DNA of 64,000 nucleotides, from positions 62,001-126,000 of the forward strand of contig NZ_LGAP01000009.1 in the NCBI RefSeq assembly GCF_001270265.1. Reading direction: 5' to 3'. The DNA comes from Ensifer adhaerens. Lineage in GTDB: Bacteria > Pseudomonadota > Alphaproteobacteria > Rhizobiales > Rhizobiaceae. Under the pieces are notes generated by a model, which was not told the origin of the DNA, searched no databases, and was given only the letters and a program-made list of their open reading frames with translations. The first letter of the stretch is position 1. Every line of letters starts with the position of its first letter. Below, in pieces: positions 39,289-50,453 of this stretch. Position numbers and translations under genes: made by a program.

Positions 39289-40380
39289 CTACTTTTGTTC
39301 CGGGACCAGCTTGTGCATTGCCCCTGCGGCCATCTGTTTGCGGCGCGCTTTCTTGGTGTAGGTCGTCGTCTGGTTCTTCGTCGTCCACCCGAAAATTGCC
39401 ATCAGTTCTTCATCCGTCGCGCCGTTCTCGGCGGCGATCGTGGCGCCGGCTTTGCGCAACCCATGAGTGGTGCAGTGGAACAATCCGGCCTGGTCGCACC
39501 AGTCCCGCATCTTGTTGCCTAGACCGTTCGTGGTGAATGGTTTGCCGAACTCGGTGACGAGGAAGGTCAGGTTTCCGGTCGGGCATTCGTCGATCGTCTT
39601 TTGCAGTTCCGGCAGCACCGGAATGTCCACGATGACGCCGCTCGACTTACGCGTTTTCTCCGGCCGGATGGTCAATTGACCGTTGCGAATGTGCTGGAGG
39701 CCGACGATGGAGAGACTATCGAGACGCAGGCCGGTGTAGAGCGCCAGGTGCAGCATAAGACGCGCCTTTGTGCCGGCGACGTGCTTGGCCTCGTACTGGC
39801 GCACTTCCTCAACGGTCCAGGTGTGGAAACCGTCGCCGGAATGCAGCGGTTTGATCTTCGCGGCCGGGTTCATCTGCGCGAGGTCGCTTTCGACGGCCCA
39901 TGCGAAAAAGGCCGATATCGCCTTCTTCACGTCATTGCGAGAGCCTGGCTTGTCTCGGATCGCATCGCGGATCTCGACGACGTGCCGCTTGCGCATGTCA
40001 GCATAGGGTAGGTCGCCGCAACGAGCTGTGCCGAACTTGTAATCACAGACCTCTTCGAGGATCGTCGCGCGACGAGCCATGACGCCGGCGCTGACGGTCG
40101 CGCGACGCTTGTACTCCGCATAGAGCCAATCGACGGTGCCTTCGGCGGGATCTCTTTTCAGCGTCACCACGGCAGGCGGTGGCTCTGCGCCTTCGGGCAC
40201 GTAAGGTATACCAAGGCGGGCGCACGCAACTTCCTTGTCGAATGCATCGGTTCCCGGCGTCTCTCTCAGGCGCACCTTCTTGCGGCCGGGCGCGCGAAAG
40301 TAATACCGCGCCTCCCTGGTGCGGAAGTCGCGGTCTAGGCTCACGCCCTTCTGCAGTTTGTCGTCAACCCTTTTTGGCAT
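39289..40380 (-). CDS. int: Tyrosine recombinase (prophage integrase)
   Basis: The 363 aa product starts MPKRVDDKLQKGVSLDRDFR. An N-terminal SAM-like core-binding domain covers about residues 90-190 (TVDWLYAEYKRRATVSAG). The catalytic domain follows with Arg in LALYTGLRLDSL, HGLRKAG (HxxR) and the nucleophile Tyr in TTTYTKKA. It integrates the prophage into the adjacent tRNA-Leu. Its start overlaps the excisionase-like gene, so it is the last gene of the leftward operon. Longer in-frame starts lie inside the neighbour. Confidence 0.94.
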   Translation of the reverse strand: MPKRVDDKLQKGVSLDRDFRTREARYYFRAPGRKKVRLRETPGTDAFDKEVACARLGIPYVPEGAEPPPAVVTLKRDPAEGTVDWLYAEYKRRATVSAGVMARRATILEEVCDYKFGTARCGDLPYADMRKRHVVEIRDAIRDKPGSRNDVKKAISAFFAWAVESDLAQMNPAAKIKPLHSGDGFHTWTVEEVRQYEAKHVAGTKARLMLHLALYTGLRLDSLSIVGLQHIRNGQLTIRPEKTRKSSGVIVDIPVLPELQKTIDECPTGNLTFLVTEFGKPFTTNGLGNKMRDWCDQAGLFHCTTHGLRKAGATIAAENGATDEELMAIFGWTTKNQTTTYTKKARRKQMAAGAMHKLVPEQK

Positions 40381-40672
40381 TGTCGAACGCATTTCCTTGT
40401 GGCCGCTGCTCGTCCGGATATCGGTGCATGCCAGCCTTGTGGGGGAGCGCTCGGAAGCTCGCCCAAAGCTCGTCGACATCCCAGATGTTTCGCCCGCCGA
40501 GCACTCTCGGTTGTGGCATGGTGCCAACTTCAACGGCGCTGTCAAACAGGGATGCGCTAATGCTCAGCAAAGCGGCAGCTTGCTCGCGGGAAACGCCGAA
40601 GGGCGGGAGGCTTGGCGGAAGCATGGTTGAACGGCGAGCGCGCGTGTCGACCATGGTCATTTCCCTGCTCAT
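40364..40672 (-). CDS. Excisionase-like DNA-binding protein
   Basis: The 102 aa product starts MSREMTMVDTRARRSTMLPP. A winged-helix/MerR-like segment, FGVSREQAAALLSISASLFD followed by PQPRVLGGRNIWDVDELWAS, resembles AlpA/excisionase-type helix-turn-helix proteins that sit next to integrases. It probably directs excision or regulates int. Start and stop overlap the flanking genes: ATGA with the HNH gene, and 17 bases with int. The precise role is inferred from position. Confidence 0.7.
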   Translation of the reverse strand: MSREMTMVDTRARRSTMLPPSLPPFGVSREQAAALLSISASLFDSAVEVGTMPQPRVLGGRNIWDVDELWASFRALPHKAGMHRYPDEQRPQGNAFDNAKKG

Positions 40673-45765: not shown

Positions 45766-45978
45766 TCAGGCGGCGCGGCTGGCGATGCGCACGCGGATGT
45801 GACGCGCGGATTGCTGGAATGCCAGTTCGCGGGCGGCGTCGCCGTATTTGATCAGCTGCTGCTGGGTGAAGCCTTTCAGCTTCAAGGCGGTTTCGGTGCA
45901 GCCTTCGCCGAGCAGGCGCATGGCGTCAGCCATGGAATGGGTGATCTGGCTGGGAGTGTTTCCGAGGGGGTTCTGCAT
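45766..45978 (-). CDS. First gene of the leftward operon, 70 aa
   Basis: The product starts MQNPLGNTPSQITHSMADAM. It is helical, with RLLGEGCTETALKLKGFTQQ, QLIKYGDAARELAF and a basic end (SARHIRVRIASRAA). ACGGAGATCCC before the ATG gives a good ribosome-binding site. It lies directly behind the leftward promoter at 46014-46042, in the place where lambda has N, but I see no arginine-rich N-like motif at the N-terminus. Function unknown. Confidence 0.65.
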   Translation of the reverse strand: MQNPLGNTPSQITHSMADAMRLLGEGCTETALKLKGFTQQQLIKYGDAARELAFQQSARHIRVRIASRAA

Positions 45979-46010: not shown

Positions 46011-46025
46011 TGGAAAATAAATCCA
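46011..46025. promoter_or_regulatory. Repressor operator OL-1
   Basis: TGGAAAATAAATCCA, the exact reverse complement of the 15-mer at 46051-46065. It overlaps the -10 of the leftward promoter, so binding should block transcription. Confidence 0.72.
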
Positions 46026-46042
46026 ACTCTTAGAAACGTCAA
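46014..46042 (-). promoter_or_regulatory. Leftward early promoter (PL-like)
   Basis: On the minus strand TTGACG (46042-46037), a 17-base spacer and TATTTT (46019-46014) precede the 70 aa gene. One 15-mer operator (46011-46025) covers the -10; the second (46051-46065) lies just upstream of the -35. Confidence 0.7.
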
Positions 46043-46050
46043 TGCGTGTC

Positions 46051-46065
46051 TGGATTTATTTTCCA
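46051..46065. promoter_or_regulatory. Repressor operator OL-2
   Basis: TGGATTTATTTTCCA, starting 40 bases from OL-1. A weaker half-match (TGGATTTATGAGAAC) is at 46102-46116. Confidence 0.72.
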
Positions 46066-46131
46066 ATTCTCCCGATTCGACTCGACTCTCCTGCGCTTCT
46101 CTGGATTTATGAGAACCAAAGGAGAACAAAC

Positions 46132-46368
46132 ATGTCTGTCGCGCTACGCTATCAGCCTCGAATTTTCGTTCTGCATCTGCGGTGCGAGAACTGCGTGAGG
46201 GAGACTTCGAGGGTGGTGGAGGTGCCGCCCGTCGACGATGCGCCTTGCGACGTCGACGAGTTGGTCGAGAGCGGGGTTCTCTCCTCGCTGACGTATTGCT
46301 GCACTCAGTGCGACTGCAGAATTGGGCAAATCATTGGAGTTAGTCAGGAGCGAAACTATGTCGCATGA
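46132..46368 (+). CDS. Small zinc-binding-like prophage protein
   Basis: The 78 aa product starts MSVALRYQPRIFVLHLRCEN, with AAAGGAGAAC ahead of the ATG. Cysteine pairs CENC near residue 18 and CCTQCDC near residue 60 suggest a zinc-ribbon. It reads away from the leftward operon and towards the repressor gene, and overlaps the next gene by 11 bases. Function unknown; lysogeny-related expression is possible from its position within the immunity region. Confidence 0.68.
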   Translation: MSVALRYQPRIFVLHLRCENCVRETSRVVEVPPVDDAPCDVDELVESGVLSSLTYCCTQCDCRIGQIIGVSQERNYVA

Positions 46369-46654
46369 GGTAACGGAGTTTGTAATAGTGCCGCCCGTTG
46401 ATCAGCGGGCGCAGATCCATGGTGCGAAGGAGCGGTTTGTTGATTACCTCGTCCGTCGCTTCCCTGGCTATGCGTTCAAAGTCTCGGCGGTCGCCCCCGT
46501 AGGAGAGATGGATTGCTACATGATCTATCCGATCATGAACTTTCTCGGACCGGACGGAAAATCCTACATGTGCGCCAAACCGCCGGCATGGTTGCTCGGC
46601 GAAATCAGTCGCGCATGCGATGACTTTGATGTCGAGCGAAGCTTCGCCGCTTAG
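46358..46654 (+). CDS. Hypothetical protein in the immunity region
   Basis: The 98 aa product starts MSHEVTEFVIVPPVDQRAQI, with AGGAG 9 bases before the ATG. KERFVDYLVRRFPGYAFKVS and the C-terminal LGEISRACDDFDVERSFAA form a small alpha/beta domain. No family recognised. It ends overlapping the repressor gene by four bases on the opposite strand, so the two converge. Confidence 0.65.
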   Translation: MSHEVTEFVIVPPVDQRAQIHGAKERFVDYLVRRFPGYAFKVSAVAPVGEMDCYMIYPIMNFLGPDGKSYMCAKPPAWLLGEISRACDDFDVERSFAA

Positions 46655-47364
46655 TAGGTAAATTCGTTCTGGACGCGCCGAACAAGGCCGATGACCTCGA
46701 CTCGCGTGCCGTCATCGGCGTCCGCGTCTCGTTCGACTACGATCGGCTTGTGCTTCGGATTCGTCGATCGGGGGTGAAACTCGGTGCGACCTTCGTAAAT
46801 CTCAACCTGCTTCACCGACCATTCGCGAGTATGTCCGCCGTCACGCGTGCGCTCGACTATGACGACCATTGCATCACGAAGAACTGCTTCGTTTGCCACG
46901 TCTTCATATGCAACGGCGATAACCCGGTCGCCATCCATGATGGGTCTTGGCCGAAGGTTGTTCATTGAGTCCCCGGAGACATCGAAGACGATTTGGCGGG
47001 CTTGAGGAAAGCGCTCATCCGGTGGCACTGAGATCAAAACCGGCTCCGACTGATCGAACTCATCAACTTCACGAAACGCTCCAGCCTCCACCCGGCCCAC
47101 CACCTGGGCGGCGACCATCCTGCCGGGCATCAATGTCAGTTCGCTCTGGGCCACCTCGATGCCATCTCGAAGCCAAAGGAGGGGGCGCTTGATCGTACGT
47201 GCGAGCGTGTCCAGCACATCTCCTCGCGGCTGCTCAATGTCGCCTCGCAGGTACTTGTTGATGTTGTCGTAGGGAATGCCTGATCGACGGGCAAGCTCGG
47301 CCTTGTTCCAGCCAAGTTCCTTACGTCTCTCGTCCAATCTTTTCCACCAAGCCATGGTCGCCAT
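46651..47364 (-). CDS. CI/LexA-like prophage repressor (HTH + S24 peptidase)
   Basis: The product is 237 aa from ATG 47364. An XRE-type helix-turn-helix covers residues 12-60 (KAELARRSGIPYDNINKYLR). An Ala-Gly cleavage site lies at residues 94-95 (VEAGAF). The S24 peptidase domain has Ser133 in VSGDSMNN and Lys185 in EWSVKQV. This is the layout of RecA-stimulated self-cleaving repressors, so SOS induction is expected. It probably binds the 15-mer operators at 46011, 46051, 47373 and 47413. Alternative starts at 47400 and 47355 exist. Confidence 0.9.
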   Translation of the reverse strand: MATMAWWKRLDERRKELGWNKAELARRSGIPYDNINKYLRGDIEQPRGDVLDTLARTIKRPLLWLRDGIEVAQSELTLMPGRMVAAQVVGRVEAGAFREVDEFDQSEPVLISVPPDERFPQARQIVFDVSGDSMNNLRPRPIMDGDRVIAVAYEDVANEAVLRDAMVVIVERTRDGGHTREWSVKQVEIYEGRTEFHPRSTNPKHKPIVVERDADADDGTRVEVIGLVRRVQNEFTY

Positions 47365-47372
47365 CATAGTTT

Positions 47373-47387
47373 CGGAATTATTTTCCG
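47373..47387. promoter_or_regulatory. Repressor operator OR-1
   Basis: CGGAATTATTTTCCG, related to TGGATTTATTTTCCA at 46051. It lies 9-23 bases upstream of the repressor start and overlaps a probable repressor promoter -10 (AATAAT on the minus strand), suggesting autoregulation. Confidence 0.65.
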
Positions 47388-47390
47388 GGT

Positions 47391-47405
47391 TGGATTTCAC
47401 TTGCC
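47391..47405. promoter_or_regulatory. Weak repressor operator between OR-1 and OR-2
   Basis: TGGATTTCACTTGCC matches 11 of 15 positions of the 46051 operator, with one good half-site. It lies between the two stronger sites, like a middle operator. Confidence 0.4.
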
Positions 47406-47424
47406 TTGTAAGTGGATTTAAAAT
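47396..47424 (+). promoter_or_regulatory. Rightward early promoter (PR-like)
   Basis: TTCACT (47396-47401), a 17-base spacer and TAAAAT (47419-47424) lead into the Cro-like gene at 47442. The -10 lies inside operator 47413-47427. Confidence 0.5.
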
Positions 47425-47427
47425 CCA
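47413..47427. promoter_or_regulatory. Repressor operator OR-2
   Basis: TGGATTTAAAATCCA is a near-perfect palindrome starting 40 bases from OR-1, the same spacing as OL-1 to OL-2. It covers the rightward -10. Confidence 0.72.
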
Positions 47428-47441
47428 TTATTGGTGCGTGC

Positions 47442-47696
47442 ATGAGCACAATTACGATCAGGCAAATCATCAAGGATGCGGGCGGTGCGGAAGCGATCGC
47501 GAACGCAGTAGCTGATGCGGGCGGCGACCTGTCGAAGGATGCCGTTTACAAGTGGACGAAAACTGGGATCCCGGATCGCCATTGGCCGATCATCATCGCT
47601 CTGACCGAACACGGCCCGGTGGCCCTCTATGCCGCAAACTGTGCGGCGCGAGGTGTGCCCGTCGAAGCCTCGCAACATAGCGAGGCGGCTGAATGA
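47442..47696 (+). CDS. Cro/YdaS-like DNA-binding protein
   Basis: The 84 aa product starts MSTITIRQIIKDAGGAEAIA. IANAVADAGGDLSKDAVYKW and TKTGIPDRHWPIIIALTEHG form a YdaS/Cro-type helix-turn-helix, where the WTKTGIP turn is typical. It diverges from the repressor across the operator pair. It probably represses the repressor gene and the early promoters during lytic growth. Its stop overlaps the next ATG (ATGA). Confidence 0.85.
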   Translation: MSTITIRQIIKDAGGAEAIANAVADAGGDLSKDAVYKWTKTGIPDRHWPIIIALTEHGPVALYAANCAARGVPVEASQHSEAAE

Positions 47697-47833
47697 CGAT
47701 GTTCTCCAAGCAAGGCACGAGAAGAACCGGCATCCTCCTCCCTGCCGGGTGCCTTGCCGCCTGGCAGGGGCGCGTCCTCCGGCGCGTCCCTGTCTCTGTT
47801 TTCCCTTTTGCCTATCCATGTGGTCCCCCTTGA
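47693..47833 (+). CDS. Possible 46 aa peptide after the Cro-like gene
   Basis: A frame from ATG 47693, overlapping the previous stop, to TGA 47831-47833. It reads MTMFSKQGTRRTGILLPAGC, then a Val/Pro-rich end. Only its ATGA overlap supports it; there is no domain, and the sequence could equally be untranslated leader before the CII-like gene. Confidence 0.25.
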   Translation: MTMFSKQGTRRTGILLPAGCLAAWQGRVLRRVPVSVFPFAYPCGPP

Positions 47834-47942
47834 TCTGATGGTGACCCTACGCGCGGGCCTCTCGCGCTTCACTGAATCCTTATCCGGTTTTCTTTCCTTG
47901 CTTTTTTCGCGGGGTGTTTTCGTGCGTTTTGATGAGCCTTTG

Positions 47943-48380
47943 ATGAACCTGAAAGGTGCGACCGAAGCCAGCTTCAAGCTCGGCGGCGGTCTGACCTCGT
48001 TTGCGCTTTTGGCGCGCGTCGGGGTGTCGACACTGTCGAAGTACGCCTCGGTCAGCCAAGAGTTTCGCGAGAACGTCATTCCCGTCGACATCGCCGTCGA
48101 GGCCGACCGTCGCGCCGGATCTCCTGTCATCATCGGCGAGGCGGCGCACCAACTCGGCTTCGAGCTAGTGCCGATCGCGGGGCAGACGGCGGCAAAACCA
48201 GTGACCGAAGCCGACGCGCACCGGGTGCTGAAAGAGACCATGGATGTCTCGCAGGCGATCATCGCGGCACGGTCCGACGGCAAGATTGACAGCCTGGAGC
48301 GCAAGCAGATCTCGCAAGAGGTGCGCGAGGCGATCCGCGCACTCGAAGCGGTGTTGGCTGGGATCGGGGAAGAGCCATGA
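47943..48380 (+). CDS. CII-like phage regulatory protein
   Basis: The 145 aa product starts MNLKGATEASFKLGGGLTSF. SRVGVSTLSKYAS-type sequence (VGVSTLSKYASVSQEF), VIPVDIAVEADRRAGSPVII and EAAHQLGFELVPI match the Phage_CII family found in rhizobial prophages. It probably acts early to decide lysogeny. Starts at 47838 or 47754 would add residues without similarity and lack a clear ribosome-binding site, so 47943 is preferred with moderate certainty. Confidence 0.75.
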   Translation: MNLKGATEASFKLGGGLTSFALLARVGVSTLSKYASVSQEFRENVIPVDIAVEADRRAGSPVIIGEAAHQLGFELVPIAGQTAAKPVTEADAHRVLKETMDVSQAIIAARSDGKIDSLERKQISQEVREAIRALEAVLAGIGEEP

Positions 48381-48607: not shown

Positions 48608-48759
48608 TGCCCTCGCTTCCTCGACAGATCCTCATCGAGCGCGTGCTGCAGCTTTGGCACGACCGCCAGCACGACACCCACGCCATCGTCGTACTGCTCA
48701 ACATCGACGAGCGCGAGGTCTGCGAAATCATCGAACAATCGGAAAGGCGGGCGCTGTGA
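48607..48759 (+). CDS. Hypothetical 50 aa prophage protein
   Basis: The product starts MPSLPRQILIERVLQLWHDR and ends EREVCEIIEQSERRAL. HAIVVLLNIDEREVCEIIEQ is probably a helix-turn-helix, resembling sigma-region-4-like fragments. The start overlaps the previous TGA (TGATG), and the stop overlaps the GTG of the methyltransferase. The small size leaves function open. Confidence 0.62.
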   Translation: MPSLPRQILIERVLQLWHDRQHDTHAIVVLLNIDEREVCEIIEQSERRAL

Positions 48760-50453
48760 GCGATGGACTGCCGAAGGGAATTGGCGATCGCGCCAGGCGG
48801 ATCATGGACGCGGCTCTTGCCTCGGGCGAGTTCCGGTCCGCAGATCCACAAGACCAACGGGCATGCGGAAACCTCAACGGCCGGCAGCTGTTGAAGCGGC
48901 ATGCCAAGGATGCCTGGCTCTGGTATCCGACGGCGAAGGCCCACGAGCTGGCGGGCGTAACGCAGCCGGCCGCAGGCGAGAGGGGCGATGGCGGACCCGA
49001 TGGTGATCGCCTCCCTGTGCCGATTGCCGACTCCTCCGACCTAGTCATCGCTATCGAGAGTGCCCGCGCGATGTTGGATGCCGGCGACGTGCAAGCGGCG
49101 CTGTTGCTTTCGGGTGGGCTCTATGAACGTGCGAAGGCCGGAGCGGCTTATGCGCAAAAGGTGAAGGCGTCGCGCGAGCTGATCGACAAGGCCCGGCGCA
49201 TGCAGGCCGAAGCGCTCAAAATCGAGAGCATGTGCTACGTCGCCATGGCCGATGCGATCGACGAGGCGCAGGCCAAGGGCCATGTCGCAAAACAGGGACA
49301 GGCAAAGGTCCGCGATGCGGACGTTTTCACATTCGACGATGTCGGCATCGACAAACGCCGCCTGCACGAGGCGCGCAAGTTGCGCGACGCCGTGCGCAAA
49401 GAGCCTGGCTTTGTCGAACGCGTGGTGGAAGCACGGATTGAGGCGGGGCTGGAGCCGAGCCGGCGCAGCATTGCCGGGGCCATCGGCACGCGCAGCGCCA
49501 GCAATGACGAGAAGGGTGACCAGCTCTACGAGACGCCGCAAGAGGCGACCAAGACACTGCTGGCGCTGGAGAGCTTTTCCGCCACCGTGATGGAACCCGC
49601 CGTCGGGCGCGGCGCGATCCTGCGCGTGCTGGAAGCGGCGGGATATGACGTGGCGATTTCGGATCTGCGCGACCGTGGCGTCGCGACGCAGCATGGCGAG
49701 CTGCAGCAGGTGGGTGACTTCCTCAAGTCCGTGCCCGGCGATGCTGAAGGCATGGATATCGTCACAAACCCGCCGTACGGCGACGTTGCCAATGCCTTCC
49801 TGGCTCATGCGCTGCGCGTTCGCCGCCCGGGCAAGATGGCGGCGTTGCTGAACCTCAATTCCATGTGCGGTTTCGACGATCCCGATCGCCGCTACCTGAT
49901 GGACGAAACCCCGCCATCCCGCGTCTACGTCTTCACCCGCCGCCTGCCGATGATGCACCGCGACGGATGGGACGGGCCGAAGGCGACAAGCCAGATGAAC
50001 ACCGCCTGGTTCGTCTGGGAGCGCAACCACGACGGCAGCTATGGCCGTGGTGACGGGTTCAAGACGATTCGCGTCGATTGGCTCCCGTACCAGGCAGCGC
50101 CGGCGCTGACGCCGGGCGCAGACTGGCATATCGCGCCGCTGAAGTTTGTCCCCGACGACGACTGCGACGAGGATTTCACCCGCGAGACACCGCGCAAGAC
50201 GCTCGACGAGCGCTGCGATGAGGAGCGGGCGCGCGCGCTCGTTTGGATGTTGGAACACGACGAGTTCGACGCGATGACGCTGCGGCGTGGGATCGGTGTT
50301 CGGCCGTCCGTGTCCGATGCGCTAATCGCCGGGCTTTCGGCGGACGGGCTGATCGAGCCGCGCGACGGGGCGAATTGGTCGCTGTCGGATGCCGGGAAGC
50401 TGGCGCTGGAGGCGACCGCTGGAGCGCTGCTGCTGCTGGAGGTGGCGCAGTGA
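48756..50453 (+). CDS. DNA N6-adenine methyltransferase-like protein with extra N- and C-terminal domains
   Basis: The product is 565 aa from a GTG overlapping the previous stop. Residues 1-250 are helical and ParB/KorB-like in appearance (RRLHEARKLRDAVRKEPGFV). A SAM-binding motif (VMEPAVGRGAIL, near 280) and NPPYGDV (near 337) define a gamma-type adenine methyltransferase. The last 80 residues resemble a winged helix (LRRGIGVRPSVSDALIAGLS). It probably methylates phage or host DNA, perhaps against restriction. The architecture is unusual. Confidence 0.8.
   Translation: MSDGLPKGIGDRARRIMDAALASGEFRSADPQDQRACGNLNGRQLLKRHAKDAWLWYPTAKAHELAGVTQPAAGERGDGGPDGDRLPVPIADSSDLVIAIESARAMLDAGDVQAALLLSGGLYERAKAGAAYAQKVKASRELIDKARRMQAEALKIESMCYVAMADAIDEAQAKGHVAKQGQAKVRDADVFTFDDVGIDKRRLHEARKLRDAVRKEPGFVERVVEARIEAGLEPSRRSIAGAIGTRSASNDEKGDQLYETPQEATKTLLALESFSATVMEPAVGRGAILRVLEAAGYDVAISDLRDRGVATQHGELQQVGDFLKSVPGDAEGMDIVTNPPYGDVANAFLAHALRVRRPGKMAALLNLNSMCGFDDPDRRYLMDETPPSRVYVFTRRLPMMHRDGWDGPKATSQMNTAWFVWERNHDGSYGRGDGFKTIRVDWLPYQAAPALTPGADWHIAPLKFVPDDDCDEDFTRETPRKTLDERCDEERARALVWMLEHDEFDAMTLRRGIGVRPSVSDALIAGLSADGLIEPRDGANWSLSDAGKLALEATAGALLLLEVAQ

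Follow-up and report, generated by a model that had tools for sequence, protein, structure and literature searches.

Which protein docks at the two pairs of 15-mers that lie on either side of a CI-like repressor gene in Ensifer adhaerens, and what else feeds into the switch that they appear to form? The DNA analysed here, which we call the window, is a stretch of 64,000 nucleotides (contig NZ_LGAP01000009.1, positions 62,001 to 126,000). A first-pass annotation had described the 15-mers as two pairs, each with 40 bp from start to start, and had taken them for a lambda-like circuit of left (OL) and right (OR) operators with a code of its own. We consider it highly probable, from the sequence and its relatives, that the locus is a CI repressor switch with TGGA-N7-TCCA operators, a proposed dual release by the SOS response, and a putatively methylation-sensitive operon encoding a small Cys4 protein. 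Comparison with relatives supports the operators, the three-site OR, the co-variation with the recognition helix, the S24 residues, the LexA box, the GANTC cluster and the conserved operon as predicted elements of this switch.

A direct check of the sequence found the four 15-mers at 46011, 46051, 47373 and 47413, with both spacings at 40 bp, and the weak middle site at 47391 was present as well. The elements of the repressor circuit are given below, where PL and PR are the early leftward and rightward promoters and PRM is the promoter for repressor maintenance.

46011..46025: OL site overlapping the PL −10 box, TGGAAAATAAATCCA; conserved in relatives
46051..46065: OL site upstream of the PL −35 box, TGGATTTATTTTCCA; exact reverse complement of the site at 46011
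47373..47387: OR3, CGGAATTATTTTCCG
47391..47405: OR2, degenerate, TGGATTTCACTTGCC; centre at about −42 of the proposed PRM start
47413..47427: OR1, TGGATTTAAAATCCA
46014..46042, minus strand: PL promoter, TTGACG (46042-46037), 17 bp, TATTTT (46019-46014)
47363..47368, minus strand: candidate PRM −10 box TATGAT, just before the cI start (47355)
47406..47434, plus strand: candidate PR, TTGTAA, 17 bp, TATTGG; OR1 fills the spacer
46651..47355, minus strand: CI-like repressor with HTH_3 and Peptidase_S24 domains; Ala91-Gly92, Ser130 and Lys182 conserved
47442..47696, plus strand: Cro-like DNA-binding protein, 84 aa, carph-isopro domain

The 15-mers are rare in the genome. The pattern TGGA-W7-TCCA occurs without mismatch at 3 places in 7,459,544 bases, all of them in the immunity region, and the backwards control pattern is absent from the genome. 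When up to 2 mismatches are allowed, the window holds 7 places where 0.66 are expected, a number reached by none of 100 shuffles; three of the seven (4482, 8657 and 17249) lie far outside the immunity region. We also scored the window with a matrix made from relatives only (96 site copies, 18 of them distinct), from which the window, near-identical relatives, the TAGA class described below and some duplicate OL regions had been excluded. The sites at 46011 and 46051 scored 23.8 each and OR1 scored 28.5, against 9.7 for the next best place in the window and 10.8 for the best place among 20 simulated 64-kb sequences.

The scan of related prophages that the first-pass annotation had suggested, for the 15-mers and their spacing, was run on 113 loci. 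A repressor-based search had given the best 80 of 106 viral loci together with 36 genome loci; 110 of these 116 fetched loci were used (L117-L122, six distant relatives among the 36 genome loci, were left out), and the window and the phages phi3LM21 and RHph_TM3_3_3 were added. The N-terminal domain (NTD) of the repressor is of the window's type (M.WW, type A) in 50 of the 113 and of other types in 63. Defining a pair as two 15-mers at a distance of 38-42 bp, neither with more than 2 mismatches, we found at least one pair in all 50 same-NTD loci, phi3LM21 included, and in none of the 63 others. The 83 pairs are spaced by 40 bp (65 pairs), 39 bp (12) or 41 bp (6). Two pairs are present in 33 of the 50 loci; the remaining 17 have a more mismatched OR3 or, in the case of L091, a truncated OL. 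A lack of such conservation would have refuted the annotation, and the scan showed the opposite. The annotation's idea of an operator code distinct from that of lambda thus stands, although the code is not private to this prophage, being common to a group that includes phi3LM21. Phage phi2LM21 (L005) and RHph_TM3_3_3 (L006) are without TGGA sites; the latter has a different NTD and operator, and in phi2LM21 there was no related repressor at the cut-off used and no match to the Cys4 protein.

The sites also change together with the repressor. In five loci (L029, L031, L032, L033 and L090; the TAGA class), TAGA...TCTA replaces TGGA...TCCA in OR1 and in the OL sites, except that four of these loci keep TCCA on one side of the second OL site, and the OR2 half-site is AATCTA where AATCCA or TTTCCA stands elsewhere. 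The recognition helix is IPYANINKYLNG in 5/5 repressors of this class and ..YD..NKYLRG in 45/45 repressors of the TGGA class, a change of Asp to Ala. By phmmer, Asp30 is aligned to the second Gln of the helix of the 434 repressor, which we take to be Gln29, a base-contacting residue. The 434 operator differs in sequence from that of the window. The alignment, to a 434 hybrid (PDB 1sq8; E 0.0015), is limited to query residues 4-65, within which the helix-turn-helix (HTH) segments match and the specificity residue falls in the same place. The exchange of Asp for Ala along with TGGA for TAGA would be a natural specificity switch open to a test in vitro.

Conservation that is limited to one NTD and operators that vary with the recognition helix tie the sites to the CI-like repressor. 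It is extremely improbable that a host regulator binds the 15-mers or that these are accidental palindromes: AT-rich palindromes do arise by chance, and three other places with 2 mismatches lie in the window, but the three exact places in the genome all fall in the immunity region, and the sites are conserved and co-vary with the repressor. A host regulator as their origin was rejected on the rarity in the genome and the NTD-linked conservation (50/50 against 0/63). A second alternative, in which the Cro-like protein is the main binder of the 15-mers or shares them with CI, seems to us improbable, if less so. The CI and Cro proteins of lambda share operators, and here, as in relatives, the Cro-like gene adjoins OR. 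The change from TGGA to TAGA, by contrast, accompanies a change in the CI recognition helix (5/5 against 45/45), and by inspection no change in Cro was unique to the TAGA loci, which is a weak point since the Cro list was partly out of frame or missing.

Five points weigh against tying all the sites to the CI-like repressor. Cro may share the operators, and sequence cannot tell the two binders apart. The 50 loci are not independent, several being near-identical strains or one prophage in two collections; the repressors of L007-L010 and L087, for instance, are 98-100% identical to the window's. The TAGA class may reflect a single evolutionary event (L029 and L031-L033 are close, L090 is a deeper member). 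OR3 does not clearly follow the change from TGGA to TAGA. Finally, OR3 and OR2 score 4.5 and −2.7 in the relatives' matrix and are unexceptional on sequence alone, for four places elsewhere in the window outscore OR3 and each simulated 64-kb sequence holds 0-2 places at or above its score; their putative assignment rests on position, conservation and, for OR2 only, co-variation. With these points counted, the repeated 15-mers are very probably the docking sites of the prophage's master repressor.

The 63 loci with other NTDs (L048-L086 and L094-L116) have repressors whose C-terminal part is similar and whose N-terminal part is of other types, many of them aligning only from about residue 70 on at 60-68% identity. 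In an alignment of 111 repressors, from which the truncated L073 and L091 were left out, agreement with the window residue averages 44% over the N-terminal part, compared with 71% over the C-terminal part; all 111 have Ala91, Ser130 and Lys182, and 108 have Gly92. We assigned 44 of the 63 loci to three types, leaving 19 outside, and by inspection each type has its own palindromes repeated in OR and OL: about CGTACATAACGTACG in type B, TGTGCGATTATCGCATA in type C and TGTACGATAAACATACA in type D. Pairs of these less than 75 bp apart were found in 16/16 loci of type B, 16/19 of type C and 3/9 of type D, for which the pattern was strict, with spacings mostly of 26 or 35 bp, 34-35 bp and 35 bp, respectively. 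By inspection, then, there appear to be at least three further operator codes among these relatives, and since they are spaced differently, the 40-bp spacing is a feature of type A.

How are the sites arranged around the promoters? In the aligned relatives the distance from OR2 is 22 bp to OR1 and 18 bp to OR3, so that 40 bp is the distance between the two outer sites, at which bound dimers might conceivably touch. The spacing that the first-pass annotation had noted therefore holds, whereas an OR of two sites gives way to one of three, on the strength of the middle site conserved in relatives. OR2 is half-conserved in the aligned relatives and almost a full palindrome in L042 and L092; its own matrix score is poor, its half-site co-varies, and its placement fits activation of PRM. 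The candidate PRM −10 box at 47368-47363 is kept in most relatives. If TATGAT is that box, the OR2 centre would lie near −42 and cI would be leaderless, its transcript starting at or next to the ATG (47355). The cI message of lambda is leaderless. The Cro-like gene (47442) may likewise begin at or next to its transcription start.

On the left, OL consists of two sites, with the PL −35 box TTGACG between them and the −10 box inside one. The overlap of this pair with a leftward TTGACG-17-TATTTT promoter, which had been proposed earlier, holds by consensus, on the minus strand, and a TTGAC between two OL sites is also seen in relatives; as judged by consensus, the locus thus has another early promoter, with an operator region of the same sites. 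A third OL site at 46102 (GGATTTA) was rejected: its score of −16.6 is noise, and it is not changed to AGATT in relatives of the TAGA class.

The genes around these operators are laid out as in a lambda-type phage. The repressor combines an HTH with an S24 domain carrying the Ala-Gly, Ser and Lys of self-cleaving S24 repressors, matches phrog_4 repressors, and is divergent from the Cro-like gene; the placing of the second 15-mer pair between a repressor of cleavable type and a Cro-like gene is borne out by this layout, with OR at 47373-47427. Judged by these features, the region is the immunity region of a lambda-type temperate prophage whose predicted operators have their own code and not lambda's. 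The neighbouring genes are the following.

45766..45978, minus strand: first gene of the leftward (PL) operon, 70 aa, phrog_22869, function unknown
47754..48380, plus strand: CII-like activator, Phage_CP76, phrog_101; true start possibly further in
48756..50453, plus strand: DNA methyltransferase with NPPY motif, downstream of the CII-like gene; 65% identity to phi2LM21_p21
39289-40491, same strand as the leftward operon: integrase gene, left of the immunity region

Lambda has a cleavable CI and divergent cI and cro genes, with OR1 in PR, OR2 near −42 of PRM and OR3 over PRM. The window shares with it the cleavable-type CI, the divergent cI and cro genes, a predicted three-site OR, a distant OL and a downstream CII-like gene; unlike lambda, it has another operator sequence, an OR spacing of 22+18, two OL sites seen, and an operon with a LexA box inside the region. 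The closest known system is phi3LM21 (MF614628), which has the same gene order, a repressor 88% identical to the window's, the same kind of operators (40 bp apart in OR, 41 bp in OL), and likewise the LexA box, the GANTC block and the Cys4 gene. The paper describing phi3LM21 names the CI and Cro genes, and its main text contains the words "operator" and "LexA" 0 times (PMC5537653).

What lies between OL and cI goes beyond the earlier annotation: a LexA box, tandem GANTC sites and an operon of the Cys4 gene and a second gene.

46113..46127, plus strand: LexA (SOS) box GAAC-N7-GAAC (GTTC-N7-GTTC on the other strand), between OL and cI
46082..46110, plus strand: proposed SOS promoter, TCGACT (46082-46087), 17 bp, ATTTAT (46105-46110); core near-invariant in relatives
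46074..46088: three tandem GANTC sites, GATTC GACTC GACTC, with −35 candidates TCGACT at 46077-46082 and 46082-46087
46132..46368, plus strand: gene for the small Cys4 protein, 78 aa, a proposed SOS-induced antirepressor or regulator
46358..46654, plus strand: second gene, 98 aa; overlaps the Cys4 gene by 11 bp and meets the cI end tail to tail

GTTC-N7-GTTC is the LexA motif of the alphaproteobacteria (PMC7987155), and here it stands in a promoter, as in the LexA regulon of that class. Counting a box before a small gene or, failing that, the first box more than 650 nt beyond the repressor start, we found it exact in 106 of the 113 loci, relatives whose repressors have other DNA-binding domains among them. 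Of the seven exceptions, two (L058 and L103) have a box with a single mismatch together with GANTC, three (L059, L070 and L091) have little DNA beyond cI, L108 has a Cys4 gene but no such box, and L112 has neither. In the loci read, the box precedes a gene for a Cys4 protein of 71-83 aa, followed in most by an overlapping or adjoining second gene, which was not recognised in some (e.g., L029, L032, L033, L044, L045, L090 and L111). Some relatives (L023, L038, L046) have about 1-3 kb of extra DNA between cI and the SOS module. Conservation of a Shine-Dalgarno sequence was rejected as the sole cause of the match to the LexA box: in eight loci (L274-L280 and L282) an exact box begins 35-36 nt upstream of the start codon and a GGAG of its own stands in between, so the ribosome-binding site is not the explanation.

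A search from the side of the Cys4 protein gave the same picture. All 28 viral loci found in this way, many on contigs already in the repressor set, have the box and at least two GANTC sites, and a related repressor stands beside the Cys4 gene in 28/28 viral and 9/12 genome loci; in the other three genome loci (L246, L253 and L254) only about 1.5 kb of flank was available, and L254 is a weak match. The protein was found in at least 11 of 346 genomes of the family, part of the first-look candidates having been scored. Besides the window, 11 family places were fetched: ten have both box and GANTC, and one, a weak match, has neither. A single further match, with both, came from 199 genomes of the order.

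Rhizobium phage 16-3, with its C repressor and immX, is another rhizobial temperate phage with OL and OR operators, which are of another type than the window's; its immX is at most a tentative candidate for a homologue of the two overlapping genes. A search of 50,697 phage records with the Cys4 protein gave 3 matches at E 0.01, and 16-3 was not among them. The operators of 16-3 are named oL1, oL2, oR1 and oR2 (PMC12429752).

The GANTC sites, too, persist in relatives whose repressors have different DNA-binding domains. We took the 60-nt regions between box and OL and found at least two GANTC sites in 94 of the 95 that are distinct, mostly in tandem and 23-35 nt beyond the box, compared with a mean of 1.6 regions (maximum 7) after base shuffling and with 105 of 15,557 control windows (0.7%). 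Columns were counted over the 88 of 96 regions that are in register, the 8 out of register being excluded. The first copy is near-invariant, with a core AGTCGA in which five columns are kept in 88/88 and one in 86/88 regions, and may reflect a −35 box TCGACT. That the whole cluster is a by-product of this box, unrelated to methylation, is a serious possibility, although we lean against it. The core reads TCGACT on the coding side and lies where a −35 box is expected, the same block precedes non-phage genes, and the published GcrA data at SOS genes are mixed. The second GANTC, on the other hand, has a variable N (G in 65, A in 20 and T in 3 of the 88 regions) but keeps its T (82/88) and C (84/88), and in six regions that lose the second GANTC place a GATTC follows just after. 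The motif YGAKTCG is present in 93/95 regions against a mean of 66.6 and a maximum of 76 in 300 trials in which the GANTC letters were held and the rest shuffled. This is the extended motif of GcrA-activated promoters (Haakonsen 2015, cited in PMC7987155), and it lies here at the proposed promoter.

The prophage encodes a methylase that may act on such sites: the window's enzyme is 65% identical to phi2LM21_p21 and 46% to phi3LM21_p21, both reported to be GANTC-specific (PMC5537653). GcrA/CcrM promoters likewise have GANTC and YGAKTCG at the promoter (PMC7987155, PMC6813329, PMC11514494); unlike them, the window combines these motifs with a LexA box, and does so within the immunity region of a phage. 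On gating by methylation the published record is mixed. In Agrobacterium tumefaciens, three ImuA orthologs rise upon CcrM depletion, perhaps by a damage response or by release from methylation (PMC11514494). Other published findings count against such gating. In Brucella abortus, lexA is a GcrA target by chromatin immunoprecipitation, yet its induction is independent of GcrA (PMC6813329). The extended motif was not detected at GcrA-activated promoters of Brevundimonas subvibrioides, and GANTC conservation at SOS genes was ascribed to overlap with LexA sites (PMC7987155), unlike the case here, where GANTC and the LexA box are more than 20 nt apart. Phage genomes of alphaproteobacteria had GcrA sites without positional asymmetry (PMC9437464).

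Does this promoter occur elsewhere? In this genome the combination of LexA box and tandem GANTC occurs at one place (two overlapping matches), and the pair in the window is the only overlapping pair among 19 places with GANTCGANTC. Among 346 family genomes, 44 have the combination and 2 have the backwards control, and at least 120 viral stretches carry a LexA box with GAGTCGAGTCG (L123-L202 among them). We fetched 31 places from the family genomes, the window's own place accounting for two: 4 have a phage-type Cys4 gene downstream, 11 have other small Cys4 genes (L288, L290, L293, L298-L301, L308-L310 and L314), 5 precede an ImuB-like gene, and 11 precede nothing nameable, some perhaps by chance. 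The ImuB-like genes of family genomes (L303-L307) have the same LexA box with a GAGTCGAGTC promoter; ImuB is the name that we assume for this Y-family-polymerase-like gene, one product of which matched the IMS family at E 0.0002, just below the Pfam cut-off. By its motifs, the phage promoter seems to be of a type that is not confined to this phage group. The Cys4 and second proteins could then be SOS-controlled accessory genes of host origin, outside the switch, as the same type of promoter before other small Cys4 genes (11/31) and Y-family-polymerase-like genes (5/31) would suggest. We regard this as rather unlikely, given that a related repressor adjoins the phage Cys4 gene in 28/28 viral and 9/12 genome loci and that profile similarity between the phage Cys4 protein and the others is weak (28% probability).

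In the scheme that follows we infer every binding event and every promoter start, as well as activation from OR2, repressor cleavage, induction by SOS, antirepression and gating by methylation. The CI-like S24 repressor would bind the TGGA-N7-TCCA palindromes: on OR1 it would cover the PR spacer and turn off cro and the rightward genes, on OR2, near −42 of PRM, it might stimulate transcription of its own gene, on OR3 it would cover PRM, and on the two OL sites, which flank or overlap PL, it would keep the leftward operon off. DNA damage could then act by two routes. In the first, RecA would stimulate self-cleavage of the repressor at Ala91-Gly92; in the second, LexA would leave the box at 46113 and the two-gene operon directed towards cI would be turned on, its Cys4 protein then targeting the repressor's conserved C-terminal half or serving as another early regulator. 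Tandem GANTC sites at the proposed −35 box would make this promoter sensitive to methylation by CcrM or by the phage. We thus propose that the LexA box, GANTC sites and Cys4 operon form an SOS-induced, methylation-gated induction module, perhaps with an antirepressor.

Small LexA-controlled antirepressors are well known elsewhere (PMC3121763; PMC9437464), and those of the Gifsy phages, GfoA and GfhA, serve heteroimmune phages with different operators (PMC3121763). The window shares with them a gene for a small protein under a LexA box, predicted here from its motif, and because its relatives combine conserved C-terminal with swapped N-terminal repressor halves, one antirepressor could serve heteroimmune phages as in Gifsy. 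Several points speak against such a role. Gifsy antirepressors pair with uncleaved repressors and are encoded outside the immunity region (PMC3121763); the window's repressor has conserved cleavage residues, so we do not class the system as a Gifsy-type member, and since the repressor looks cleavable, an antirepressor is not needed for SOS induction. Neither small protein matched a known family above cut-off, PADLOC and NCBIfam included, and structure models of the Cys4 and second proteins (mean predicted local distance difference test scores of 75.8 and 91.8) gave no PDB match at E <=0.001; no family or fold link to the Gifsy antirepressors was found for either.

The operon might instead act by convergent transcription into cI, lowering repressor, with its small proteins otherwise employed, for example in early lytic growth. 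The second gene and cI do end tail to tail (46654 and 46651), in the same orientation in the relatives examined, but in several relatives (e.g., L023, L038 and L046) about 1-3 kb separate the module from cI, and both proteins are conserved in sequence; we doubt this explanation, while giving it some weight. Returning to the induction module, a wider form of the proposal is that rhizobial phages share it as a two-input cassette, in which LexA box and GANTC govern a Cys4 antirepressor acting on the C-terminal half of the repressor, heteroimmune prophages are co-induced, and the methylases partly set the promoter. We put this forward as speculative and, as a whole, unlikely.

In the literature searched, as far as its text was available and with subscription journals mostly uncovered, we found neither these operators nor the Cys4 module nor a phage LexA/GANTC promoter, which is no proof of absence. 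A 2025 study reported that the operators of lambda and 16-3 are absent from phiLM21-like Sinorhizobium prophages and, in its available text, left the true ones open (PMC12429752); the present analysis proposes operators for the Sinorhizobium repressor group that includes phi3LM21. The LexA/GANTC promoter and the Cys4 operon are the more surprising part. The role of phage GANTC methylases in the phage cycle was left open in the available account (PMC5537653), and a concrete target for them is proposed here, a single promoter at which GANTC, LexA box and operators lie within about 120 bp. If the two-input cassette is true, induction of these prophages would hinge on DNA damage plus the cell-cycle methylation of the host.

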